Positions 4,360-39,396 of a stretch of DNA of 64,000 nt are shown piece by piece (position 1 is the first letter of the stretch; each line of letters begins with the position of its first letter). The translations under genes and the position numbers were made by a program. A model generated the notes under the pieces. That model worked only from the letters and a program-made list of their open reading frames with translations. It had not been told where the DNA came from and searched no databases. The DNA is from Phaeobacter sp. G2. GTDB lineage: Bacteria; Pseudomonadota; Alphaproteobacteria; Rhodobacterales; Rhodobacteraceae. The stretch is from the NCBI GenBank assembly GCA_025163595.1, contig CP104100.1:1798001-1862000 (forward strand), given 5' to 3'.

Positions 4360-4379
4360 GGAAGTGGTGGGCGACCCTG
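4360..4379. repeat. attL: Prophage attachment site, left copy
   Basis: The 20 bases GGAAGTGGTGGGCGACCCTG are identical to 39308-39327, where they form the 3' end (including the CCA complement) of tRNA-Tyr. Here there is no tRNA beyond the repeat, as expected for the distal attachment-site copy. The integrase gene lies 72 bases to the right. Confidence 0.9.
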
Positions 4380-4451: not shown

Positions 4452-5552
4452 TTACCACTCCAGAGAGGCTAATGCTTGGATACCGTCTGCAGCCAAAAGG
4501 CGTCGTTGCACCCCTTTCGTGTAGACTTCAGATGTGCGGGCTTCGGTGTGTGCCATCACTGCCATGATCTGATGCTGGCTAGAGCCTGATTCTGCCATTA
4601 GCCCCGCAACGGCTTTGCGAACACCATGGGATGATCTTCCCGGCAAGCTTGCAGCATTGCACCAGCGTTGGACGCGGACCCGTAAGGCTTCGGTAGAGGC
4701 AAAGGGTTTGCCTTTGTCATTCAGAATATAGGATGGGCCAATTACTTTCGCGGAACGTGTTGCCTCAAGGAGCGGTGGAAGCATTGGGATTGAAACCGGC
4801 GCTGACCCCTTTTTCCTCGGCTGCCATTCTAGCCATATGTTGCCGTTGTGGGAAACTTCCTGGTCGCGGCCAAGCCAAATTGCATCGCCTATTCGGCAGG
4901 CTGTAAAAGCTTGGAGGGTAAGCCATAGGTGGGCAGTTGTTCCCTTGGGGTGGGCACTCTTGAAGGCCTTTAGGTCAGCAGGGGTCCATGGGGTGGCTCC
5001 CCCTTGAGGATTGCGGTTGATTGGAGCGATGCCTGCCGCCGGGTTATGCCCAATTTCGCCTCGCTCAACCGCCCAATTATAGATCGCTCGCACGGATTTG
5101 ATTAGATTGTCGGCAGCTCCTGGACGGCTTGCCCAGGCGTCGCGTATCGTAAGGAAGGCACTTGTCGGGGCGTCCATATCGCAGTCGCCATATCTAGTTT
5201 CATCCGGGTCTGTAAAATCGCACATTCTAGCGAGGACGCTGCGGCGTTGTTTGAGCGTAGCTGCAGACATTTGACCTGCTTCAACCATGTTCTCAAGAAA
5301 CGCTAGATAGCGACTGCAGAGCCAATCTAGGGATCTTTCCGTCGCGCGAGTCTCCGCTGGTGTCCACAACTCTCCTACCCTGGCAGCATAGTAGTGATTA
5401 GGGAAATCAGGGTGATCATGCCCAACGGGAATGGTGATTTTACGCCCCTTTTGGCCTTCTACTCGGACGCGGTATCGGGGGGATCCATTTCTGTTGCGCT
5501 CAACTAAATACCCTGGAAAGTGAATTTTCACGTCGCTTGCCCCTGGTTCCAT
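4452..5552 (-). CDS. int: Phage integrase, tyrosine recombinase
   Basis: 366 residues, within the usual range for phage tyrosine integrases. An N-terminal SAM-like core-binding region (about 60-170) precedes the catalytic domain. The catalytic signature is visible: Arg in ACRIGDAIW (about 218), H-x-x-R in SSHGVRKAVA (about 310-313), His in MAHTEARTSEVYT and the nucleophilic Tyr in the same segment (about 341). It lies beside the left attachment repeat and is transcribed toward it. It should catalyse integration into the 3' end of tRNA-Tyr. The start overlaps the preceding small gene by 25 bases. Confidence 0.95.
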   Translation of the reverse strand: MEPGASDVKIHFPGYLVERNRNGSPRYRVRVEGQKGRKITIPVGHDHPDFPNHYYAARVGELWTPAETRATERSLDWLCSRYLAFLENMVEAGQMSAATLKQRRSVLARMCDFTDPDETRYGDCDMDAPTSAFLTIRDAWASRPGAADNLIKSVRAIYNWAVERGEIGHNPAAGIAPINRNPQGGATPWTPADLKAFKSAHPKGTTAHLWLTLQAFTACRIGDAIWLGRDQEVSHNGNIWLEWQPRKKGSAPVSIPMLPPLLEATRSAKVIGPSYILNDKGKPFASTEALRVRVQRWCNAASLPGRSSHGVRKAVAGLMAESGSSQHQIMAVMAHTEARTSEVYTKGVQRRLLAADGIQALASLEW

Positions 5553-28300: not shown

Positions 28301-30493
28301 CGTCTCCTGGCGGTCAATGATGTTGCGGATCTGCTGGGCCATCAGAGTTTTGATATGTCTCTGGTGGGGGGTGACAGGGCCTCTGGTCTGGTGGATCGCT
28401 TTGGCGGTTCGGAGGCGATGAACGCAGCGGCCAATAGCTATTTTGCCGGGTTTTATACGGACGCCGAGCAGGTGGATACCGTTCTGCGCCGCCTGGGCGA
28501 TCGGTTTGAGGATCTCGGCCTGGCGATGCCTGAGAGCCGCGAGGGGTATCGCGAGCTGGTGGAGGCGCTGGACCTCACCACCACCCATGGGCGGGATCTT
28601 TATGCCAGCTTGTTGCAGATGTCGGCAGCAATGGATCAAGTCTTGCCGCAGGTGGACAGCTTCACCCTGTCGATGACGGGTATGCTGGATGAGATTGGCG
28701 GCGAGATTGGCCTGCAGATCGAGACGGCGCGCGACATGGCGGCGGATGCACGGGAGGCGGCCACCCTTTGGGCTAGAACCGCTGATAGTTTGCGCAGCAC
28801 TCTGGCGGATCTGGGACCCTCTGAGCTGGGCGGGGCCAGCCGGGACCAGGCCGCAGCGGCGCAGCGTAGAACCTATGAGGATGCTTTCCAGGCGGCGCGC
28901 GGCGGCGATCAGGAGGCAGCGGCTGGCCTGGCTGCACTGGCGCGAAACTACCTGAAAAGCGCACAAGGTTCGGCCAGCTCTTCCCAGGAATATCGCCGCA
29001 TCGCGTCCCAGGTGCAGGGGCAGTTGAACTTTATCGCCGGGATCTCTGATCTGGAGAGCGGCAATGATGAGGTGCTGGAAGCGCTGTATAATCAGCAGAT
29101 CGAGGTTCTGACCGGGCTGGGCACCTTCCTGCAGCTGAACGGCCTGACCAGTGATCAGGTTGGCGCGCTGACAGCTGGAGTGCAGGCGTTGCATGCGGAT
29201 TGGGATGGCACGGTTGGGGCGTTTCAATCTTCGCTTGGTGCTCTGCAGGATGCGATCACGAATGCTGAGGCCTTCTCCTATGATGACCTGGTGGGGCGGC
29301 TGGATGTTGCGGTGGCACTGGATGACACCGCGCCGGGCTGGCTGCAGCGGTTGGTTGAGAGTGCCGGGGCGGGGATCCAGACAACACTGGATTTTGTCAT
29401 TCGCCGCGATGATCTGACAGCGGCAGATCGCTGGATTGCCACCAATGCCCTGTCGGAGCATGTGGCCACGCTGGATCTGGTGCTGGGGCAGGATCTCGAT
29501 CGCGGCACCCGGCGTCTGGCGCTGAACACCGCAGCTGAGATCCGGCGCGATATGCGCCTGAACCTGGTGCAGGATCTGGACGCTGACACGCGGGGCCTGT
29601 TGCTGACGCGCACTGCAAATTTGTCGCGCCGGGTGAATGTGGCGCTGACCAATGGCGCAGATAAAACCGTAAGGCGTTTGAACCGCTTGCAGGATCTGAT
29701 TGGCGGTTCCGGCAGCGGCAATCTGACCTTTGCCGGTGGGGTGCAGTTGACCGCTGACAGTGTGTTCAATGATCTGAGCAGCGCCACCAATGAACTGGTG
29801 CGCCCCATGACGCAGTTGCACGATATGCTGGGGGATCTGCGCGATGCGGTGAATGCCGATGTGGCGCAGCGCCAGACCCAGCTCAAACTTGTTGAATTGC
29901 AGTCAACGGGCGTGGCGGTTGCTGAGCGCCGGGAAAACCAATCACAAGGCACTCTGGACACCTTCAACGCCCTGCGCCGCCAATATGAGATTACTTTGGT
30001 TGGTCAAAACGAAAGCGTGGGCCTTAATCGCAACGGGCTGCTGACCTCTTCCTTTGACTATTACGGCGGTCCAGAGGCGAATTTTGAGCCCTTCAAGGCG
30101 GCACTGGAGGCACAGCTTGGCTCGCGGTCCTATGCAGAAATCATGGGCAATATGAATGCCTCGATCGAGGCTAAGAATGCGCGGCTAGAGCGGCTGCGGG
30201 GGCAGGTCCGAGGGCTGGGCGGGGTGCCGCAGTTTGCGGCTGGCGGTGTGCATGCCGGGGGCTGGCGCGTGGTTGGCGAACGTGGCTGGGAGCTGGAGAA
30301 TACCGGATCCAGCCGGGTGATCAGCCATTCCGATTCCAAGGCCATGCTGGACAATCGCCGGGTGGTGGAAAGCGTCGATAATCTGGCGCGCCAGGCTGGG
30401 GTGCAGGGCCAGAAGGTAGAGCTGCTGATCAAGACAATCGCGCGCCATATTGAGAGCTGGAATGACGCCGGCCTACCAAAGGAGGTGGTGTGA
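25322..30493 (+). CDS. Tail tape measure protein
   Basis: 1723 residues, long for the family; at roughly 1.5 angstrom per residue this would imply a tail near 250 nm. N-terminal helical region, then hydrophobic segments at about 265-325, long coiled coils at about 370-500 and 590-700, a Gly-rich stretch at about 755-835, and a C-terminal end with FAAGGVHAGGWRVVGERGWE, seen in many tape measure proteins. It sets tail length and is ejected with DNA. The start abuts the chaperone extension stop. Confidence 0.95.
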   Translation: MSAIIGSLRGLLSLESTAFESGAKRGIAAMGNVERRMVRLGNTVERQGRRLALGLTLPMVGAAAIAVKSSLKIVDAQAKMAQSLGTSVQSMQVMSRAADLSGVSIGEVEQATIQLTKRLSQAAAGSGPAVKALDRLHLSAEALQRLPLDERMAKIQDAIARYVPEAERAAVASELFGSRAGLIFTRIDSSALRVATDDVTRFGLAISEVDADQIERTNDALSRMGVVGRGMANQLTVALAPFLEDLSDKAASAAEWFTNLSDGTKAMIAKGAALTAAIGPVAIGLGLVLKVAAPLVGVVAAIASPVGLAVAGFTALAVASTALAGSASGAVSFAEAHEIAMDNVTIAMGDQIHATARLADALRKGGPVTLAAIEAKMAEAEARRAVTAELVRERQEKELEALGYYKLLESMGQYQQALAAMRTPGDDLEQMPARLRASYEEAEQSLAALLVEQQRLLEGVRSQNHLTEEEQANLQQIQANLAELQRRWNELNGITSENVTLTDRGTVAAGQLAQGLGGAAGQAAALRGYLSGLPGALAGVQANIAGLKAGMAVLAGGGGEAAANVAKYRAELVAAMPPLEQMQDGQREFVEEGINQQVRLFEENQRLSGEYRAQISALNKVSSAGGAASKSALAALQKEIRDRRALVGLTDEQRQKLEAVRAVQQKLGREGAGIGKAQIEALADQVIELDRVDAALDRVRDQQERWAENITRTAFEGGNLGDTIKGMLKDIAFQFANSRIVLPVVASVSGILGLGGLTSGGGGSAGAALSGGGGGGLGGGGLLSGVSNIASLVGGGGGVLSGIGSGLGGVLSGGGLGSSFANLGGLVSGASAGWGAVGAAIPAVGIILAVVGLLAKGLSRKYAGTGIRGNFDAEGFNGGQFDFYKGGFLRSNRTYYKPLEYEFEAALDDSMAGLTTGLTDMADTLGLRMDALEGFASEGFTIWINGKSSEEIQAALMEQIEATGNSMAELVLGTEKFTRSGETALETLGRLSSRLLAVNDVADLLGHQSFDMSLVGGDRASGLVDRFGGSEAMNAAANSYFAGFYTDAEQVDTVLRRLGDRFEDLGLAMPESREGYRELVEALDLTTTHGRDLYASLLQMSAAMDQVLPQVDSFTLSMTGMLDEIGGEIGLQIETARDMAADAREAATLWARTADSLRSTLADLGPSELGGASRDQAAAAQRRTYEDAFQAARGGDQEAAAGLAALARNYLKSAQGSASSSQEYRRIASQVQGQLNFIAGISDLESGNDEVLEALYNQQIEVLTGLGTFLQLNGLTSDQVGALTAGVQALHADWDGTVGAFQSSLGALQDAITNAEAFSYDDLVGRLDVAVALDDTAPGWLQRLVESAGAGIQTTLDFVIRRDDLTAADRWIATNALSEHVATLDLVLGQDLDRGTRRLALNTAAEIRRDMRLNLVQDLDADTRGLLLTRTANLSRRVNVALTNGADKTVRRLNRLQDLIGGSGSGNLTFAGGVQLTADSVFNDLSSATNELVRPMTQLHDMLGDLRDAVNADVAQRQTQLKLVELQSTGVAVAERRENQSQGTLDTFNALRRQYEITLVGQNESVGLNRNGLLTSSFDYYGGPEANFEPFKAALEAQLGSRSYAEIMGNMNASIEAKNARLERLRGQVRGLGGVPQFAAGGVHAGGWRVVGERGWELENTGSSRVISHSDSKAMLDNRRVVESVDNLARQAGVQGQKVELLIKTIARHIESWNDAGLPKEVV

Positions 30494-31404
30494 TGGACTT
30501 CAATATTATTGCGCCAATGCCGGTCACGGATGTGGAGCTGGTGGGCTCCAATATTGCCGAGGATGATCACCCGGTCTGGGATGCGGGCACCACTTATGGG
30601 CTGGGGGATCGGGTGATCTCTCTGGTCACCCACCGCATTTATGAGAGCGTCCAGCCTGGCAATCTGGGCCACGATCCGGTCTCGGATGATGGCACCTGGT
30701 GGCTGGATTTGCAGCTCTCAACGAACCGCTGGTCAGCCTTTGACAACCGCCGCTCAAACAAGGCCAGCCGGGCGGATGAGATCACCTATTCGATTGTGCC
30801 GACGCGGGACTGCGATGCGATCTCGCTGTTTGGCCTCACGGCGGGGGCGGTGCAGATCGCGGTGCGCGATGGCGGCACCTTGATTTATGATCAGAGCTTT
30901 GTTCTGGCGGACACCGGCCATGTGGTCAGCATGTACACCTATTTCTTTGGCGGCATTTTTTATGCGCGCCAGAAGGTGCTGAACGGCTTTCCGGGCTACA
31001 TCGGCCACCGGATTGATATCACCATCTCCGCACCGGGTGCGGTGGCCGAGGTGGGCCATATTGTGCTGGGGCGCAATCACATCCTTGGCACGGTCATGGA
31101 TGGGGCGGAGATCGGCCATGTCAGCCACAGCCGTAAAGAGTTTGACCAGTTTGGCGATGAGCTGCTGATCAAGCGCGGCTCTACGCGCAAGGTCACGGTC
31201 CCGCTGCGGGTGCCAACCCTGCAGGCTCCGCGCGTGATGGATATTGTGGCCGAGGTCGATGGGCTGGTCACCGCCTTTTATGGCTCCAGCGAGCACGCGC
31301 CAAACTACGGCATCGAGGGCCTTGGCTTTGTTGATGACCACACTCAGCCGCTGGATGCAGCTGGGGATTCACTCTTCACCCTTGTTCTGAAAACCATCAA
31401 ATAG
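30493..31404 (+). CDS. Tail protein downstream of the tape measure
   Basis: 303 residues from ATG 30493, with a strong AAAGGAGGTGG site just before it inside the end of the tape measure gene. Near the N-terminus, VWDAGTTYGLGDRVISLVTH then YESVQPGNLGHDP resembles a small carbohydrate-binding (CBM5/12-like) module. The rest is beta-rich (VMDGAEIGHVSHSRKEFDQF). It is probably a distal tail or baseplate component that helps bind the host surface; no exact family is recognised. Confidence 0.65.
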   Translation: MDFNIIAPMPVTDVELVGSNIAEDDHPVWDAGTTYGLGDRVISLVTHRIYESVQPGNLGHDPVSDDGTWWLDLQLSTNRWSAFDNRRSNKASRADEITYSIVPTRDCDAISLFGLTAGAVQIAVRDGGTLIYDQSFVLADTGHVVSMYTYFFGGIFYARQKVLNGFPGYIGHRIDITISAPGAVAEVGHIVLGRNHILGTVMDGAEIGHVSHSRKEFDQFGDELLIKRGSTRKVTVPLRVPTLQAPRVMDIVAEVDGLVTAFYGSSEHAPNYGIEGLGFVDDHTQPLDAAGDSLFTLVLKTIK

Positions 31405-31416
31405 GAGTGCTCAACT

Positions 31417-32493
31417 ATGGCAGCACCCATTGCCCCGGCTTTGCCGGCTATTCCGTCACGCTCTGCGCCCGAGGCAGATTTTGACGTCAAAATGTTTGCC
31501 CTGTTCAAATGGGTCACCGATGATTTTGTCGGCTTCATGGAGGCCTGGCGGGCCTATCTGGAAACCAGTAGCACAATTGTTGGCGGTGCGCTGAATGGGA
31601 CCACCATTGGCCAGACCACGCCAGCCGCGGGGGCGTTTACTGAGCTGGATGTTGTTGGGAACGTCGTTGTTGGAACCCCTGAATCCTGGACGTTCGCAGC
31701 CTCTTGGCGCGGGATCAAAGTCACCGCTCGCCATGCGTTGCAGGCGACGCACAGTGCCGGCTCCGTTGCACTATCTTCAAATTGTGCAATCGGCCCTAGC
31801 GGTTGGGCATACACTTTTGATGCGATGGCCGGAAACTATACCCAGTCGGGTGGCGCTCACATCTTCAATCGGGCTGTGGCTGGCGTTGAAGGCGATCCAG
31901 TCACATTTATCGAAACCGCCCGCTTTGAGGACAATGGGGTCTTTAAGCCCGGTGCAGACAACAGTCAGTCTCTGGGGGCGGCAGCAAAGCGCTGGTCTGT
32001 CGTTCATGCGGGTTCGGGGGCAATCAACACCTCCGATGAGCGGTCCAAAGAACAGATCTCAGACCTTGACGCTGCTGAAACGCGCGTGGCCATTGCGGCC
32101 AAAGGGCTGCTGAAAAAGTTCAAGTTCCGGGACGCGGTCGCGGCCAAGGGTGCAACTGCTCGCTGGCACTTCGGGGTGATTGCCCAGGAACTGGCGTCAG
32201 CCTTTGTGGCCGAGGGGCTGGACGCCTTTGATTATGGCCTGCTGTGCTGGGACGAATGGTGGGAAGCTGATGTGCGGGTTCCTGCGGTCTATGTGGATGA
32301 GATCACCAAGCTGTTTGATGAAGAGGGCAATCTGCTGGCGGAACCAATCACGGAAGCGGTTCTTGCTGAGCCTGCGCGTATTGAGCGCCAAACCTTTGAG
32401 AGTGCAGAGACTGCGCCGGATGGTGCGGAGCGCTTCGATCGCTATGGGGTCCGCTATGATGAGCTGATTGCCTTCATTCTGGCCGCGCAGTGA
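31417..32493 (+). CDS. Tail fibre/spike protein with S74 self-cleaving chaperone domain
   Basis: 358 residues. A short tail-attachment part (ALFKWVTDDFVGFMEAWRAY), then Thr/Gly-rich beta repeats (GTTIGQTTPAAGAFTELDVV), and from about residue 195 an S74 intramolecular chaperone. The catalytic dyad is visible as Ser206 in TSDERSKEQ with Lys211 five residues later, as in known S74 domains, and ARWHFGVIAQELASAF follows. The chaperone trimerises the fibre and cuts itself off. The mature fibre would be only about 205 residues, so a short receptor-binding tip. Confidence 0.9.
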   Translation: MAAPIAPALPAIPSRSAPEADFDVKMFALFKWVTDDFVGFMEAWRAYLETSSTIVGGALNGTTIGQTTPAAGAFTELDVVGNVVVGTPESWTFAASWRGIKVTARHALQATHSAGSVALSSNCAIGPSGWAYTFDAMAGNYTQSGGAHIFNRAVAGVEGDPVTFIETARFEDNGVFKPGADNSQSLGAAAKRWSVVHAGSGAINTSDERSKEQISDLDAAETRVAIAAKGLLKKFKFRDAVAAKGATARWHFGVIAQELASAFVAEGLDAFDYGLLCWDEWWEADVRVPAVYVDEITKLFDEEGNLLAEPITEAVLAEPARIERQTFESAETAPDGAERFDRYGVRYDELIAFILAAQ

Positions 32494-32505: not shown

Positions 32506-32820
32506 ATGGATGAAAGCGGATTGATCGACTGGATGTCGAACCTGCTGGGCGGTGCGGCAACGACGCTGGTCGGGGCCAGTATAGGCCGCCTGATGTGGCA
32601 TTCTGGTGAGGTGCGCAAAGGCCAACGCCGTTTCTTTGGCCCGGAACTGTTCTGGGAAATCCCGGTGGCCATCGGCATGGCCATCATTGGCGAGGCCATT
32701 GCCAGCTATATGGGCGCCGGGCCCACCGTGACCACCGGCATTGTGGCGCTGGCGGCTTACATTGGCCCCCGCGGCGCTGAGGTGTTGCTGACCAAATGGC
32801 TTGTACGAACTAAGCCGTAA
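32506..32820 (+). CDS. Holin
   Basis: 104 residues. Three hydrophobic segments (about 14-30, 48-68 and 72-90), a Gly/Ala-rich start (NLLGGAATTLVGASIGRLMW) and a basic C-terminus. It looks like the LydA/phage holin family. It lies directly before the endolysin and would form the membrane lesion that times lysis. Confidence 0.8.
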   Translation: MDESGLIDWMSNLLGGAATTLVGASIGRLMWHSGEVRKGQRRFFGPELFWEIPVAIGMAIIGEAIASYMGAGPTVTTGIVALAAYIGPRGAEVLLTKWLVRTKP

Positions 32821-32891
32821 CGAAACCACAAAACTCAAAACCTAAACCCAGCCCTGCCTTTGGCGGGGTCTTTTGCATTGGAGCAATCATC

Positions 32892-33626
32892 ATGAAACTG
32901 ATCTCAAACTGGCGCGCCACGCTTGGCAAGTCCTGGTCTGTCTGGCTCATTTTGGCGAGCCTGGTTCTGCTGGGCGGATACTTTCTGGCCCTGGTTCAAC
33001 CCGGCATGCTGGGCTGGGATCCGCTGTATTTTGCCATGGCCTCGGCCACATGCCAGGTGCTGGCGATCCCGGCGCGGCTGGTGCTGCAAAGCGGGCTCTC
33101 GGGCCTGTCCAGCCTTGCCGCCTTCCGGCGCGATCAGTCTGGTGCGGTGCGACGGCGCACGGTTGGCGTTATTTCTGCCAGTGGTCTCGCGCTTTCCATG
33201 GCCGTTGGCTTCATTGGCCAGTGGGAGGGGTTGCGGACGCAAGCCTACCGCGATGTCGTTGGCGTCTGGACCGTCTGCTATGGCGAAACCAAGGGGGTGC
33301 AGCGCGGTGATCGCTATAGCAAGGCGGAGTGCGATGCCATGCTGGCGCGCGAGATCCTGGCCTATGAGGCGGCGCTGGACCGCTGTTTGACCCACCCGGT
33401 GCCGGTGGGCATGAAGATCGCCCTGGTCAGCTGGACCTACAATGTCGGGGCAGGGGCTGCTTGTCGCTCGACCCTGGTGCGCCGCGCCAATGCCGGGGAT
33501 CTGACAGGCGCCTGCAATGAGCTGCCGCGCTGGAACAGGGCAGGCGGGCGCGTCTGGGCTGGGCTGGTCAATCGGCGTGGCGCCGAGCGCGCCATGTGCC
33601 ATCAGGCGCTGAAAGAGGCAGCATGA
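32892..33626 (+). CDS. Endolysin: GH24 muramidase fused to an N-terminal membrane domain
   Basis: 244 residues. Two strong hydrophobic helices lie at about 15-35 and 44-66, similar to small DUF7940-type holin-like phage proteins that usually stand alone. After a linker, residues 91-109 (VGVISASGLALSMAVGFIG) look like a weak signal-arrest-release helix, followed at once by the GH24 catalytic triad E112-x8-D121-x5-T127. The enzyme cuts peptidoglycan glycan strands. SAR endolysins are normally about 165 residues, so the extra 80 residues are unusual. Spanin gene start overlaps the stop. Confidence 0.9.
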   Translation: MKLISNWRATLGKSWSVWLILASLVLLGGYFLALVQPGMLGWDPLYFAMASATCQVLAIPARLVLQSGLSGLSSLAAFRRDQSGAVRRRTVGVISASGLALSMAVGFIGQWEGLRTQAYRDVVGVWTVCYGETKGVQRGDRYSKAECDAMLAREILAYEAALDRCLTHPVPVGMKIALVSWTYNVGAGAACRSTLVRRANAGDLTGACNELPRWNRAGGRVWAGLVNRRGAERAMCHQALKEAA

Positions 33627-33958
33627 TCCCGGCTGTTCTCTCGCGCAATCTGCCAGGGCTTGCCCTGGTGGCCATGCTGGCCGGGGCGGTCTGGACCATT
33701 CGTGATGCCTTCCAGGACCGCACCCGGTTGCGCGCCGAGCTGGCGGCCACACAAGCCGATCTCGCCACAACGCAGGCTAGCCTGCAGCAAGCCGCAGAGA
33801 CCGCCCGCATTCACCGCGCCCACCGGGACCGCGCCGCCGATGAGGCCCGCGCCTGGGTGGCGCTATCAAATGAGTTGCAAAACATGGAGGGCCGCGATGC
33901 GCCTTTATCCCCTTTGCTTGCTGCTACTGCTGGCCGGTTGTTCTCAACCCGTCCGTGA
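33623..33958 (+). CDS. Inner-membrane spanin (Rz-like)
   Basis: 111 residues from ATG 33623. One N-terminal membrane helix (LPGLALVAMLAGAVWTI) followed by a coiled coil (RLRAELAATQADLATTQASL). Its 3' end is overlapped in another frame by the lipoprotein gene at 33897, the classic Rz/Rz1 arrangement. It spans the periplasm with that partner to fuse inner and outer membranes in the last step of lysis. Confidence 0.85.
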   Translation: MIPAVLSRNLPGLALVAMLAGAVWTIRDAFQDRTRLRAELAATQADLATTQASLQQAAETARIHRAHRDRAADEARAWVALSNELQNMEGRDAPLSPLLAATAGRLFSTRP

Positions 33959-34148
33959 GGCGGTGTTGCCGCCGCCAAATGTGCCTGCCGATCTGCTGCA
34001 ACCCTGCGCGGGATACACCGGGCCAGTGCCGCAATCTGAGGGTCAGATCTCGGATGCCCTGATTGCCGAGGCGCGCGGGCGGTCCTGCGCCAATGGCAAG
34101 CTGGCCGCAGTGGCTGAGATTCTGGCCGCGCCAAACTTTGAAGACTGA
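33897..34148 (+). CDS. Outer-membrane spanin lipoprotein (Rz1-like), overlapping Rz
   Basis: 83 residues from ATG 33897 with GGAGG upstream, in a different frame from Rz, overlapping its last 62 bases. Signal peptide with lipobox LLAGC (lipidated Cys at residue 15), then a proline-rich start (VLPPPNVPADLLQP), as in Rz1 proteins. This is the last gene of the lysis cassette; cargo genes follow. Confidence 0.85.
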   Translation: MRLYPLCLLLLLAGCSQPVREAVLPPPNVPADLLQPCAGYTGPVPQSEGQISDALIAEARGRSCANGKLAAVAEILAAPNFED

Positions 34149-34478
34149 TCCTGACCTGCCACCGCTGCTGGACCGCGAATTTTGAACAGCTACAATAAGG
34201 CAACACTCGTTGACAACGGGCGGATTGCGGACATTAGCTGCACCTGCGAGAGCTCCGGGACGGACAGACTGAAGCAGCCGTTCCAAACCATCTCAAGCGG
34301 ATCCCATATGCTGCGCCACGCGCCAAGGTCGGCTGTGCGCAGGTAGTGTATTTTGCAAGGTTTGTCGGATGACTCGAAATGGAAACTCGACAGAATGCAT
34401 TATTGGGACTTGGGCTTTGTCTGATGTTAGCATATGTTCGCGCTAGGCGTGTGCGTCTAATTTGAGTAGGAAACCGAT
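34149..34478. other. Intergenic region with one copy of a degenerate dispersed repeat
   Basis: No gene seen in these 330 bases. 34328-34369 (GTCGGCTGTGCGCAGG..., ending in TTTGCAAGG and GTCGGAT) resembles 37361-37397 with a few changes and a small gap. The region separates the lysis operon from the ParA gene and must hold the promoter for the latter. Confidence 0.5.
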
Positions 34479-35585
34479 ATGAAGATACTAACAATCTTTA
34501 ACAACAAAGGAGGTGTTGGAAAAACAACGCTGACCTACCACCTTGCCCATGCATTGGCTGAAGTTGGTAAAAAGGTTTTGATGATCGACCTCGATCCGCA
34601 GTGCAACCTAACAATTTATTCACTGGCTGAGAGCGAAATCGCTGAAATTTGGCAACCTGAAGACACCTTTATTGATGATTTCAAGTCTGCTCGAACAGCC
34701 ATGGACCAAAATGATTTTGACAAAACTTGCTCAAATCCTCGCTCGATACATTTCATGTTGAAGCCGATAGAAGATGGAACAGAAGAGCTCAAAGAGCTTC
34801 CTCCTCCGGTAAAGTTAAGCAATAATCTCGATCTAATTCCGGGGCGCCTAACGCTTCATATGTTTGAAAGCAAAGTCGCGGAAAGATTCAGTCAAGTTTA
34901 TTCTGGAGACCCTCTAGCAATTAGAACCGCAACTAGCGTTCGATCAATTGCCGAAGAGTACACAAAGCTTCATAAGTACGATGTAGTCATAATTGACACA
35001 TCTCCCTCTTTGGGTGCTCTCAATCGGAACATTTTGAGCCAAGCTGACGGGTTTATCATTCCTGCAAACCCTGACCTTTTTTCGCTGTATGGTATTAGAA
35101 ATATTGGGTCAGCACTTGCGCTGTGGAAGAAACAGTACGACAGTATTTTCGCTCTACTTTCAGATGCCAAGCGACATAATTTCTCTGAGAAATTTGTACG
35201 CTTCCTAGGTTTTACTTTGTACAATGCTCGGCGATTGCAGGGCTCAAAAACTACGAATGAATTAGGCATAGCCAAAGCCCACTATAACTACGCCAAACAA
35301 ATTCCAGAAACTATTATCTCTGTATTATCACAATCTCAAATGGCTCCCTTAGATAAAAAATCTTTTGAAGGCAGTATAGGCGAGGGTGCAGTCATCCATG
35401 GCCACAACACTCTTCCCAGTATGGCGCAAAAGTATCACCTACCTATGTGGAAGTTACCTACTGCGACCGATTTAGAATCCGGAGATGCATCTACAATTGT
35501 AGGAAACCGAAAGATTTATGAAGCTACACAGGAAGCGTACGTAAAGTTTGCTGTGGATGTAATTTCTAGGCTTGAGGTGTTGTAA
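34479..35585 (+). CDS. ParA-family ATPase, cargo gene paired with a RelA/SpoT protein
   Basis: 368 residues. Deviant Walker A NNKGGVGKTT at 8-17, the switch strand MIDLDPQCN at about 36-43, and a Walker-B-like VIIDTSPSLGALNRNIL later. This is the ParA/Soj/MinD fold, here with a long insertion between the first and second motifs. There is no ParB gene nearby, so plasmid-type partitioning is unlikely. The next gene starts on the base after its stop, so the two are one unit. Codon use and AT content differ from the phage operon. It may be a regulatory or sensor ATPase for its partner. Confidence 0.88.
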   Translation: MKILTIFNNKGGVGKTTLTYHLAHALAEVGKKVLMIDLDPQCNLTIYSLAESEIAEIWQPEDTFIDDFKSARTAMDQNDFDKTCSNPRSIHFMLKPIEDGTEELKELPPPVKLSNNLDLIPGRLTLHMFESKVAERFSQVYSGDPLAIRTATSVRSIAEEYTKLHKYDVVIIDTSPSLGALNRNILSQADGFIIPANPDLFSLYGIRNIGSALALWKKQYDSIFALLSDAKRHNFSEKFVRFLGFTLYNARRLQGSKTTNELGIAKAHYNYAKQIPETIISVLSQSQMAPLDKKSFEGSIGEGAVIHGHNTLPSMAQKYHLPMWKLPTATDLESGDASTIVGNRKIYEATQEAYVKFAVDVISRLEVL

Positions 35586-36272
35586 ATGGATGATTCCGAA
35601 TGGGCGGCTTTCCAAGAGGAGCTTGATAATAAACTTCCTGACACTAAGCTTTTTATGAACGGAGTTAGCAATTTCTTCGAATCGCACCCGAGCGTGAGGC
35701 TGGAGGGGAGTTCGGTCATCCATTCGATGAAGTATAGAATGAAAGACTTAAATCACCTGAGGGAAAAGGTAACCCGCAAGAAAGCTGAAGGGAGAGATAT
35801 CAGCCCCCATAATTTATTTGAGACGGTAACCGACCTTGCTGGTGTTCGCTTGCTGCTATTATTTCAAGAAGATTTTGGAGTGATTGATAAAAGTATTCGC
35901 GATAGAGTCGGCGGGCAAGATTGGGTTCTACACGAGAAACCGAAAGCTTTTACATGGGACCCCGAGGCCACTAGGTATTTTGACGGATTTGACTTGGACA
36001 TAATACAGCGTGATACAAGCTACACTAGCGTTCATTATCTTTTGAAGCCTCGCGCGGATTCGCATGTTTGCTGTGAGCTTCAGGTGAGAACCCTATTCGA
36101 AGAAATTTGGGGCGAGATTGATCATAGAATAAACTATCCTACGCCGACAGCTAATGTTGCTTGCCGTGAGCAACTTATGGTTTTGTCGAAAATTGTAGGC
36201 GCTGGAAGTCGTCTGGTGGACTCAATCCAACGTTCCTTGTTGCACGAAGACGGAGAAGCACCCGAGAATTAG
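35586..36272 (+). CDS. RelA/SpoT-type nucleotide pyrophosphokinase domain protein
   Basis: 228 residues, single domain. Synthetase signatures are visible: HSMKYRMKDLNHLREKV (R51, K53, K61), TDLAGVRLLLL with D83, YTSVHYLL (146-152), and CELQVRTLFEEIWGEIDH with E164, Q166, R168 and H180. No HD hydrolase, TGS or ACT domain is present, so it is like small alarmone synthetases or the toxSAS toxins. The usual K-x-N-G-Y loop is shortened to RDTSYTSVH, so the substrate could differ from GTP/GDP. Joined without a gap to the ParA-like gene. Confidence 0.85.
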   Translation: MDDSEWAAFQEELDNKLPDTKLFMNGVSNFFESHPSVRLEGSSVIHSMKYRMKDLNHLREKVTRKKAEGRDISPHNLFETVTDLAGVRLLLLFQEDFGVIDKSIRDRVGGQDWVLHEKPKAFTWDPEATRYFDGFDLDIIQRDTSYTSVHYLLKPRADSHVCCELQVRTLFEEIWGEIDHRINYPTPTANVACREQLMVLSKIVGAGSRLVDSIQRSLLHEDGEAPEN

Positions 36273-36429
36273 GTAATATACGTTTGCTTCGGACTGACAG
36301 CAGTCAACCAGGTGGGCCGATCAGACCGGCGACAGAGTGTTCAGGGTGAAAACCACACGCTGCACCGCCGCAAGGCGGCTTTGAGCCCACTTTACCGGAT
36401 GCCGCACCATCAATGAAGGTCCGGTTAAC

Positions 36430-36933
36430 TCAAAGTTTCGTGTCAACGTGATGCATCACCACATTGAATCCTTCCTCAGGTGAAGGAGCGACGAAGTGTT
36501 TCGAAATTTGTCGGAATTGCTCTTCTGTTGCCGCAAATGGATGATCGCCTTGAGCATTGCGAGCATGAAGCCGCGCGATACAGACTTCGTCAGGGACATC
36601 TAAAACGTGAAGTTTGTGTGCAGCCTTCGTCTGTTCCAAGATGTCCCGCATCCAATCACGCGAAGCAATCGTGTTTGCTTGGAAGTCCAAAACGACTGAA
36701 ATTCCCTCATGTAGCAATGAGACGACGTGTGGTCCCATGACCTCGCGAAACTTTGACATGCACCGCATGTAGTCCGAAATCGACGACATTTCTTCAGAAT
36801 AAAGACCATTCAGCCATTCATCTTCAGCAATCACAATAGTTCCTGCCGTGCGACTAAGTTGGGCAGTCAGAGTGGATTTTCCAGAAGCAATTTTTCCGCA
36901 CAACAGGTGCAGAGTTGGCGTTGTCGAGGACAT
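36430..36933 (-). CDS. P-loop kinase-like ATP-binding protein (prophage cargo)
   Basis: 167 residues. Walker A CGKIASGKST (about 12-21), then EDEWLNGLY (about 37-45) and the VVLDFQAN strand, the layout of small zeta-toxin-like or chloramphenicol-phosphotransferase-like kinases. The end HDV/HVLDVPDEVCIARLHARN has the usual lid arginines. It is similar in build to the chromosomal protein at 857-1369. A 9-bp tandem repeat lies just upstream of its start. Substrate unknown; it faces leftward, opposite to the ParA/RelA pair. Confidence 0.65.
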   Translation of the reverse strand: MSSTTPTLHLLCGKIASGKSTLTAQLSRTAGTIVIAEDEWLNGLYSEEMSSISDYMRCMSKFREVMGPHVVSLLHEGISVVLDFQANTIASRDWMRDILEQTKAAHKLHVLDVPDEVCIARLHARNAQGDHPFAATEEQFRQISKHFVAPSPEEGFNVVMHHVDTKL

Positions 36934-36951
36934 ATGAATAACCTTGTTCAG

Positions 36952-37001
36952 CGCAGCGTGCGCAGCGTGCGCAGCGTGCGCAGCGTGCGCAGCGTGCGCA
37001 G
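36952..37001. repeat. Tandem repeat, five copies of CGCAGCGTG plus a partial
   Basis: Five perfect 9-base units at 36952-36996 and a partial sixth (CGCAG). They begin 19 bases upstream of the leftward kinase gene's ATG, where its promoter and leader must lie. Copy number changes could alter promoter spacing and so expression; this is inference. Confidence 0.9.
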
Positions 37002-37483
37002 TTGACGTTCAAATACGAGTTAGCCCGGCCCGGTTTTCAGACCGGGAAGGTAATTCGATTTTGGCCCTGACGACCAAAGTTCTGAACCAAGGTTTTCATG
37101 CGCCTTTAATGACACGTGGGGTTCTTATTGTCTATCGGTGAAGCAGACCTTGGCGCAGCCGCAGCGAATGCACCGTTTGTCCCGCACTGCTGCCTCTGGC
37201 CAACAAAAATGCTGCACAATGTGTTGAACGGCTGCTTCGGGGAAGCTGCAACGCAGCGCTTGTACATCTGGTCAACGGCGGCTCTGGGCCGTTCTCGTCG
37301 ATGAGGCTGGTCAGGACATAAGGGGCAGGGATCTAGCTTGTGCCAGACAAAGTGTTGACGTCGGCTGTGCGCAGGAAGCGGAGTTTGCAAAGTCGGATAG
37401 CAATCAGAAAGTGGCCTCTGCTACACCAGAAGCGAACTCACCATAGCGAAGTGGTTATGGGCAACTAGGAAGGGGGCCACTCA
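37002..37483. other. Non-coding stretch with decayed repeat sequence
   Basis: I see no credible gene. 37361-37397 is the second copy of the degenerate element also found at 34328-34369. The part at 37270-37320 (GGCGGCTCTGGGCCGTTCTCGTCGATGAGG) has no partner in this window but looks like decayed intergenic sequence. The promoter of the DUF5677 gene should lie at its right end. Confidence 0.4.
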
Positions 37484-38728
37484 ATGGACAAAATGAAAAA
37501 AGTACTTGAGGCGGAAATAGAGAAAATTCCGCGCCATTTCACGCGTCTAGCTCTTAAGAGAAAACTCGAGGAACAAGGGGTCAAGGATAGAGACGCGATT
37601 GAAGCATTCGTGGATCACGTTCTCTCCGGCAAAGAAGAGGCTTTCGAGTGGGATGGCGGTGATAACGTTCCAGAAAAGATAGCTATTGAATTTACGGATC
37701 AGGACGGCGACGAAATACTGGAAAAGATGAATGATTTCTTGAACAAAGGCTTGCCGAAATTAATCCATGGATCAATCGAGGATGGTGCCAAGAGCATCGT
37801 CAAAGACCTCGAGAAACGCTGGCCAGAAGTAAAGTTAAATGAGAAATACGAAACTAGACATTTCAGCGATCGAATTGATCTACGCTGGTCTAAAGGGCTG
37901 GACCCACTTCGAATGATGCTTATCGCGTCGCGCGAGATAGGTGAGGTCTTTTCCGGAAAACTCGTTAAGTCGAAAGCCAAGAGGGGAAAACTAAGGCGGG
38001 AGGCGCTCATGATTCTGCATGCGCGCGCTTGCCAAACCACGCGGGAGATCTTGACACTAATCGAAAGCGGTTTCCCCGATGGTGCTTACGCCCGATGGCG
38101 CACCCTTTACGAAATCACAGTAGTCGCCTTCTTTATTTCTCGGTTTGGCGATGAGGCAGCAAAGCGTTACATCGCACACGACGTTGTCAGCGCGAGAGAT
38201 TTGCTTGAAAACGAGTTCAAGTTTGCCGGGGAGGTGTTCGATCCCAGTTCGCTTGAAGGACCAGCGAAGCAGATTGAGGACGATTATGAGGCGGTCGTAG
38301 AACTATTTGGAAGATCATTTAAAGGGCCCTATGGTTGGGCAGCAGACAGCCTCGGCTGTAAAGCACCGCGCTTCCAAGATTTGGAGCAAGCGGTGGATTG
38401 GGGAGCACTTCCTCAGGAATATAAATGGTCGAGTTTAAAAGTTCACGCAGGGAGCGCCGGCACACTGAGGACGCTGGGCTCAATTCTTGGAGATAAGATA
38501 ATTCATTCAGGCGCAACCAACGCAGGTTTGCAGACACCAGCGATTCACACTGCGTCTTCCCTCCTGCAGATCACCAGCCTTATCTTTCCGAAATCACATC
38601 AACTTGAAACGGCAGTTCAATTAAAAGCTCTTGTAATTTTACGTGACAATGTCGTGAAGGAATGTCGAAAAGCAGCACGAAAACTCGAGAGAGATGAATT
38701 AAAAAATCGCACCGTCTCTGGTCAGTAA
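37484..38728 (+). CDS. DUF5677 domain protein (prophage cargo)
   Basis: 414 residues with AGGAAGGGGG upstream of ATG 37484. N-terminal helical region of about 130 residues, then a central DUF5677-like domain: LMILHARACQTTREILTLIE, GFPDGAYARWRTLYEITVVA, FISRFGDEAAKRYIAHD, and later KVHAGSAGTLRTLG and HSGATNAGLQTPAIH. The conserved Arg/His pattern in a helical bundle recalls HEPN-type RNases, but I cannot assign a catalytic motif. Often found in mobile islands. Its function is unknown. Confidence 0.7.
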   Translation: MDKMKKVLEAEIEKIPRHFTRLALKRKLEEQGVKDRDAIEAFVDHVLSGKEEAFEWDGGDNVPEKIAIEFTDQDGDEILEKMNDFLNKGLPKLIHGSIEDGAKSIVKDLEKRWPEVKLNEKYETRHFSDRIDLRWSKGLDPLRMMLIASREIGEVFSGKLVKSKAKRGKLRREALMILHARACQTTREILTLIESGFPDGAYARWRTLYEITVVAFFISRFGDEAAKRYIAHDVVSARDLLENEFKFAGEVFDPSSLEGPAKQIEDDYEAVVELFGRSFKGPYGWAADSLGCKAPRFQDLEQAVDWGALPQEYKWSSLKVHAGSAGTLRTLGSILGDKIIHSGATNAGLQTPAIHTASSLLQITSLIFPKSHQLETAVQLKALVILRDNVVKECRKAARKLERDELKNRTVSGQ

Positions 38729-39307: not shown

Positions 39308-39327
39308 GGAAGTGGTGGGCGACCCTG
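39308..39327. repeat. attR: Prophage attachment site, right copy, inside tRNA-Tyr
   Basis: Twenty bases identical to 4360-4379, covering the tRNA-Tyr 3' end (CCA complement, discriminator, acceptor strand and part of the T arm) plus five bases beyond. Integration therefore restores the tRNA, which is intact on the right side. Confidence 0.9.
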
Positions 39328-39396
39328 GAATCGAACCAGGCGTGCGTCTCCGCGAGGGAGTTACAGTCCCCTGCCACACCTTGCGGCCTGTCGCCC
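39313..39396 (-). tRNA. tRNA-Tyr (GTA)
   Basis: 84 bases on the minus strand, with encoded CCA. Acceptor stem GGGCGAC/GTCGCCC, anticodon loop CTGTAAC giving anticodon GTA, a long variable arm (class II, as usual for bacterial tRNA-Tyr) and T loop GGTTCGATTCC. The gene is intact and is the integration target of the prophage on its left. Confidence 0.97.

Follow-up and report, generated by a model that had tools for sequence, protein, structure and literature searches.

(p)ppGpp synthetases in general carry the G-loop motif K-x-N-G-Y-R, and a ParA protein is normally a DNA-riding ATPase. The two come together at the locus described here, and we know of no ParA regulator for toxSAS-like enzymes. 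The ATP-site residues of the toxSAS enzyme FaRel2 are given as R64, K66, K74, R95, E145 and Q147 in PMC11782079. In PMC9712102, CapRel SJ46 is described as an anti-phage system in which a synthetase and a C-terminal pseudo-zinc-finger with a YXXY motif are joined in one chain.

We have analyzed a window of 64,000 nt, that is the whole stretch of DNA presented here. It contains a prophage in which the gene for a ParA-type ATPase is followed directly by that for a RelA/SpoT-type enzyme. The relevant features are:

4360-4379, no strand: left attachment core, a 20-bp direct repeat matching the right core exactly
4452-5552, minus strand: prophage integrase (PHROG integrase, E 4e-28)
32892-33626, plus strand: endolysin, in the lysis region to the left of the cassette (PHROG endolysin, E 2e-60)
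34328-34361, plus strand: element at the left boundary of the cassette, with a similar copy at 37360-37393 (BLASTN, 29/34 identical)
34359-36285, no strand: exchangeable cargo cassette of the ParA and RelA/SpoT genes with about 120 bp upstream, ends approximate (BLASTN against the sister prophage L234)
34479-35585, plus strand: ParA-type ATPase, 368 aa, with FNNKGGVGKTT, DLDPQ and DTSPSLG (Pfam AAA_31, E 1e-33; alignments; model pLDDT 92.9)
35586-36272, plus strand: RelA/SpoT-type single-domain synthetase, 228 aa, with R51, K53, K61, D83, R88, Y146, H150, E164, Q166 and H180 (Pfam RelA_SpoT PF04607, E 5e-14; alignments; column counts; model pLDDT 93.1)
39308-39327, no strand: right attachment core, a 20-bp direct repeat at the 3' end of tRNA-Tyr (39313-39396, minus strand)

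We consider it reasonably probable that these two genes form an anti-phage (or anti-mobile-element) module which the prophage carries as cargo, a function suggested by sequence comparison.

The ParA-type protein has an intact Walker A sequence K-G-G-V-G-K-T that conforms to the ParABS pattern K-G-G-x-G-K-T. Its best PDB match is 3pg5, an uncharacterized protein, over profile positions 1-347 of 367 with E 1e-38, and judged by these features it is a full ParA-type ATPase, as the preliminary description of this DNA had proposed. The ParA stop codon TAA is followed at once by the RelA/SpoT ATG. The zero spacing noted in that description is thus correct, but its phrase 'fused in one unit' is not, as a stop codon separates two abutting genes. 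Pfam finds RelA_SpoT as the sole domain of the second protein, so there is no HD hydrolase, again as had been described, and in the predicted structure a single helix (residues 191-221) lies past the synthetase core. An antitoxin domain was absent from both proteins when they were searched with Pfam, NCBIfam, PADLOC and PHROGs. Membership of CapRel was ruled out, given the 228-aa length and the one helix beyond the core; PDB entries 7ztb and 9erv, which we take to be CapRel, match the RelA/SpoT profile only at E 1.9. In PADLOC (2023) the RelA/SpoT protein had zero matches and the ParA protein matched PDC-M28B and Nhi over the ATP-binding stretch alone. Membership of a PADLOC (2023) system was ruled out on that basis, and the earlier remark that no named system with this pairing was known agrees with it.

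Residue conservation in the enzyme was counted over 216 unique sequences, made up of the best 120 of 3411 database matches plus the loci described below. R51, K53 and K61 are each present in 214 of these, D83, R88 and H180 in 215, and Y146, E164 and Q166 in all 216; departures at the catalytic positions are mostly gaps. The five residues named in the preliminary description (R51, D83, E164, Q166 and H180) are accordingly in place and conserved. By position, rather than by alignment to FaRel2, the catalytic residues match the donor-site residues of that enzyme as listed in PMC11782079. The G-loop was earlier described as shortened. This is not so, since R-D-T-S-Y-T-S-V-H aligns by profile without a gap to K-E-N-G-Y-R-S-L-H of a solved GTP pyrophosphokinase, and the loop is equal in length to that of the solved RelP-type enzyme; N-G is replaced, not deleted. 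The K-x-N-G-Y-R loop of RelP/RelQ is therefore present only in part, with K/R (position 142, K or R in 210/216) and Tyr kept, and with N-G and R replaced. The residue after Y146 is Thr in every one of the 216 sequences, where the solved pyrophosphokinase has Arg. The stretch before the loop is about 19 residues longer than in the solved enzyme (profile 109-134), and within it E117 and D125 are present in 216/216 and W124 in 215/216. From these alignments the protein is likely an ATP-dependent pyrophosphotransferase that is active and whose acceptor site is unusual.

By profile, the closest solved structures are small RelP/RelQ-type GTP pyrophosphokinases, and the pair might be a true (p)ppGpp synthetase whose ParA-family regulator adjusts lysogeny or the stress physiology of the host. 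The host genome has one other RelA_SpoT gene (a 715-aa frame), which could in principle handle the product. However, the loss of N-G and the Thr after the Tyr argue against such an activity, as do the sporadic presence of the gene and its position in an anti-phage slot (both below), and we regard this explanation as decidedly unlikely.

To see how far the two genes travel together, 84,980 species, each represented by a single genome, were scanned with sequence patterns. This gave 110 confirmed relatives, of which 80 were kept; because the search used patterns the count is a lower bound. Together with 10 from a viral scan these make 90 RelA/SpoT loci. Relatives occur in Proteobacteria, Bacteroidota, Firmicutes, Poribacteria, Acidobacteria, a Methanothrix MAG and others. 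In 87 of the 90 loci the RelA/SpoT gene is immediately preceded by a ParA match, four of these matches being atypical (partial in L040 and L045, split in L058 and of distant type in L059). The two genes form a tight operon, with a spacing of −41 to +15 nt in 85/87 loci, starts being estimated by script. Each of the three exceptions is likely explained. In L024 the RelA/SpoT gene is at a contig end; in L050 the ParA gene is 1.2 kb upstream with another ORF inserted, which we take to be a transposase; and in L081, a Gracilibacteria record presumably with an altered genetic code, both genes are in pieces with stop-broken frames. The co-occurrence check proposed in the preliminary description has thus been run, and the pair is kept together; the separation in other genomes that was named there as a refutation is not what is seen.

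The same association is seen from the ParA side. Among 22 viral ParA loci scoring above 390 bits (L093-L114) the RelA/SpoT gene adjoins in 19 (in pieces in L103), and in the remaining three the contig ends within 27 nt of the ParA end. Nine of the 22 are on contigs already given by the first RelA/SpoT scan; the 13 newly found loci comprise 10 with an adjacent RelA/SpoT gene and three ending at the contig edge. Distances between ParA proteins correlate with those between their RelA/SpoT partners (r = 0.75, n = 70, the highest of 2000 permutations reaching 0.10), shared ancestry being uncorrected. For this comparison 12 of 91 loci with short, broken or atypical genes were excluded beforehand, and nine near-copies were dropped from the remaining 79. 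Linkage in 87/90 loci rules out chance neighbors. Only the odd base composition of the cassette (below) speaks for a chance association or a decayed cargo remnant, and set against this linkage and the near-invariant active sites the probability of either is negligible.

We also scanned the surrounding genes, taking 120 of 275 neighbors at random among those of up to 800 aa, with 120 of 121 frames from 13 stretches in genomes of the class as controls. PADLOC families numbered 80 among the neighbors and 24 among the controls (120 proteins each; families were counted and controls unmatched), a weak comparison because one protein can match many families and the sets differ in phyla. No Pfam family was found in more than 3/120 neighbors, so there is no common third gene.

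The prophage spans the two exact copies of the 20-bp direct repeat. The right copy lies within the 3' end of tRNA-Tyr and the integrase gene is beside the left one. Ten scanned frames include phage genes for integrase, terminase, portal, tape measure, tail fiber or spike, and endolysin. The pair is positioned between the lysis region and the right attachment site, where it had been placed in the preliminary description. Elsewhere in this genome lies the stretch L234, judged by homology to be a sister prophage. By BLASTN it is 97% identical to the window over 29108-31647 and 90% identical over 32518-34358; about 2.0 kb then differ, and 95% identity resumes at 36286-36396. Homology is thus lost at about 34358 and regained at about 36286. 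In this slot L234 has two other overlapping frames (L234:6011-7659) in place of the ParA and RelA/SpoT genes, the second protein giving a weak JukB match (E 1.8e-6) and the first no match. As a different two-gene cassette occupies the same place in the sister prophage, the unit of exchange is about 34359-36285, and ParA and RelA/SpoT are its sole plausible genes; there is no plausible third gene within it.

The cassette has a GC content of 43.6% compared with 59.1% over 5600-34358. Of 621 stretches of the same length sampled in the window not one is as low, so the deviant base composition reported earlier is real. A promoter scan of the DNA gave three promoter-like sites where 3.4 were expected. 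Six terminator-like sites were found against 2.2 expected, three of them being overlapping versions of one hairpin at 34430-34455, directly before the ParA gene; we base no conclusion on these counts. The copy of the boundary element at 37360-37393 precedes a DUF5677 gene (window 37360-38728), and possibly a second cargo slot starts there. To the right of the cassette an AAA_33 kinase-like gene is on the minus strand (36430-36933), adjoined by a short tandem repeat of GTGCGCAGC-like units at 36950-37000. A P-loop frame outside the prophage (857-1369) resembles the AAA_33 gene by eye.

The presence of the pair is patchy. The RelA/SpoT gene was found in 3/385 genomes of the class, including its own, and in all three a ParA gene is upstream, one of them of the distant type. 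With the ParA protein as query, 7/398 genomes of the phylum, again including its own, have a match at 1e-40. Five of these seven have a RelA/SpoT gene beside the match (the ParA of G392 being in two pieces), and two have neither a RelA/SpoT gene nor the SIR2 type of partner described below. A DNA search of 198 genomes of the family matched seven; only the genome of origin has the full pair, the six others giving pieces of 25-102 bases. This search is insensitive, because G635, a genome of the family found by protein search, has the pair. Relatives are few in the phage and plasmid collections. The window protein as query found six plasmid records and one phage record, the ParA protein from Edwardsiella one plasmid record, and the Edwardsiella RelA/SpoT protein three phage records.

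A DNA search of 5426 complete E. coli genomes found the pair in seven, at least 99% identical among themselves. The three copies that were inspected (L192-L194) lie in P2-like prophages, flanked on one side by the replication gene region and on the other by the portal gene. This is the gpA-gpQ hotspot, a known defense slot described in PMC9122126, whose main text says that P2 itself has old and tin there. A P2-like portal query matched 1227/5426 E. coli genomes. Six other P2-like slots were inspected. Three carry, respectively, retron St85 together with a DUF2971 gene, retron Ec67, and an ATP-dependent endonuclease. The genes in the other three have no defense name: one slot encodes a DUF262 protein, one a peptidase plus a hypothetical gene, and one has a DUF4145 gene plus a hypothetical gene. 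The cargo setting proposed in the preliminary description is borne out, since the slots exchange with other modules both in the sister prophage and in the E. coli P2-like prophages. One of the E. coli prophages carrying the pair also has an annotated SNIPE-associated protein beside its repressor (L193:1-1014).

A ParA gene in the P2 slot need not mean defense, because according to the main text of PMC9122126 a putative partition system is present between gpA and gpQ in about a quarter of P2-like phages. This is the main argument for a module of addiction or stability, in which the ParA protein would be a partition-type ATPase or antitoxin and the RelA/SpoT protein a toxin acting against cells that lose the prophage, any defense being incidental. 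Membership of the ParA family and a strict pairing that resembles toxin-antitoxin point the same way. Yet three points speak against it, namely integration of the prophage at tRNA-Tyr, the lack in the cassette of a plausible third gene that could encode ParB, and the exchange of the slot with modules that include retrons. We therefore judge a stability module to be unlikely, though it is an explanation to be taken seriously. Alternatively, the pair might have a lysogenic function other than phage exclusion, for example acting on incoming plasmids through their ParA/ParB. The ParA fold could conceivably sense foreign partition complexes. Against this, retrons are among the genes found in the same slot in E. 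coli, and the main text of PMC9122126 counts them among known defense proteins; we consider such a function very unlikely.

A wider viral ParA search gave 75 loci, including more distant ParA proteins with no RelA/SpoT gene. Directly after 21 of the distant viral ParA genes comes a family of proteins of about 290 aa (L117:5836-7709 and some 20 loci among L123-L154). Four of the 21 were scanned and all are SIR2_2, with the ThsA profile matching 4/4 and the LmuA profile 3/4. Their ParA partners are 27-35% identical to the window ParA in the best segment. We know of no name for a ParA-SIR2 pair. In reverse, 21 SIR2 relatives were examined, most of them on the same contigs, and 17 have a ParA gene directly upstream. 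As to the other four, a ParA match ends 283 nt upstream in L237, L254 has no ParA match, and L244 and L255 have just 200 and 45 nt of upstream sequence.

A ParA tree was made from 67 rows, comprising 48 distant ParA proteins and 19 close ones, every fifth of a set of 95. These close rows form one group, all 19 being paired with RelA/SpoT. The SIR2-paired rows form another, with a SIR2-like protein next in 20/22; in the other two the stretch ends at the ParA gene, and for one of them, L139, the SIR2 gene is on the same contig as L244. L050, L059, L168 and L189 cluster as a second group with RelA/SpoT partners, while the remaining 22 distant rows lack both partners. Altogether neither partner is present in 24/48 distant viral ParA rows. 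The number of effector exchanges is unsure, because the deep branches are poorly supported and long branches join one another. In the second RelA/SpoT-paired clade, L189:917-3174 and L168:2-2244 each have a small upstream gene with no Pfam or PADLOC match, and perhaps represent a three-gene variant. Other distant ParA genes lie beside a weak HEPN match (L149:2710-4383), beside a PglZ protein (L122:6001-9293), and directly upstream of a 932-aa frame that by eye is DNA polymerase I-like (L205:3535-7370) and is neither effector.

Taken together, the linkage, near-invariant active sites, patchy presence, P2 hotspot, cassette swap, SIR2-paired ParA clade and distance correlation are consistent with a defense module; partition systems in the same slot, the three of six slots with no defense name and the partnerless ParA proteins, both the two of seven in the phylum and the distant viral ones, count against it. 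In such a defense module the RelA/SpoT protein would be the effector, moving pyrophosphate from ATP onto a nucleotide or a tRNA 3' end. This would arrest growth of the infected cell, giving growth arrest or abortive infection. The ParA ATPase would act as sensor and switch, restraining or triggering the toxSAS-like enzyme. ATP-bound ParA may silence the effector (or assemble it) and change state on infection, for instance if ATP hydrolysis were altered by the DNA or a protein of the phage or by nucleoid loss. Our confidence in any particular trigger is much less than in the general defense module.

More tentatively, the pair may belong to an immune class in which ParA serves as a shared switch for interchangeable killing parts, RelA/SpoT in two separate ParA clades and a SIR2-like, perhaps NAD-degrading, protein in another. 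The ParA protein would then guard the nucleoid, with the effector freed when infection alters DNA, ATP hydrolysis or a ParB-like partner. We regard this wider idea as possible, somewhat short of probable. If the defense reading is correct, a compact module that crosses phyla is gained, with ParA as a type of regulator; with the SIR2-paired sibling clade, ParA ATPases could be general infection sensors. The two genes occupy about 1.8 kb and there is a natural copy in E. coli P2-like prophages, so the idea is open to test in laboratory E. coli.

In a literature search for ParA with RelA/SpoT, toxSAS or SIR2, confined to main texts and largely to papers outside subscription, we recognized no paper that names the pair. 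The main text of PMC9122126 contains neither the word ParA nor the word RelA, and the list of 169 systems in its supplement may include the pair. The cargo slot in the three inspected E. coli prophages is shared with the systems of the P2 gpA-gpQ hotspot. With the ParA/Soj partition ATPases and 3pg5 the window ParA has the Walker A K-G-G-V-G-K-T in common, but it differs from the partition ATPases in that its partner is an enzyme and the cassette shows no ParB gene. SIR2 defense effectors such as ThsA and LmuA resemble the SIR2-like proteins paired with the sibling ParA clade, although their effector chemistry differs from that of RelA/SpoT. The RelP/RelQ small alarmone synthetases are the nearest solved structures by profile (E about 1e-10), yet they have N-G-Y-R where the window family has T/S-x-Y-T and a longer stretch before the loop, and that family is further set apart by its near-constant ParA neighbor and sporadic distribution. 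As in the toxSAS enzymes FaRel2 and CapRel, a RelA/SpoT synthetase domain would be the acting part, and the donor-site R, K, K, R, E and Q and the G-loop Tyr are kept. The window family differs in the longer pre-G-loop stretch with E117, W124 and D125. The partner here is a ParA-type ATPase in place of a pseudo-zinc-finger or Tis1 antitoxin, and there is no fused antitoxin domain. The effector fold and the cargo setting are already known; as far as we are aware, it is the pairing with ParA that is new.
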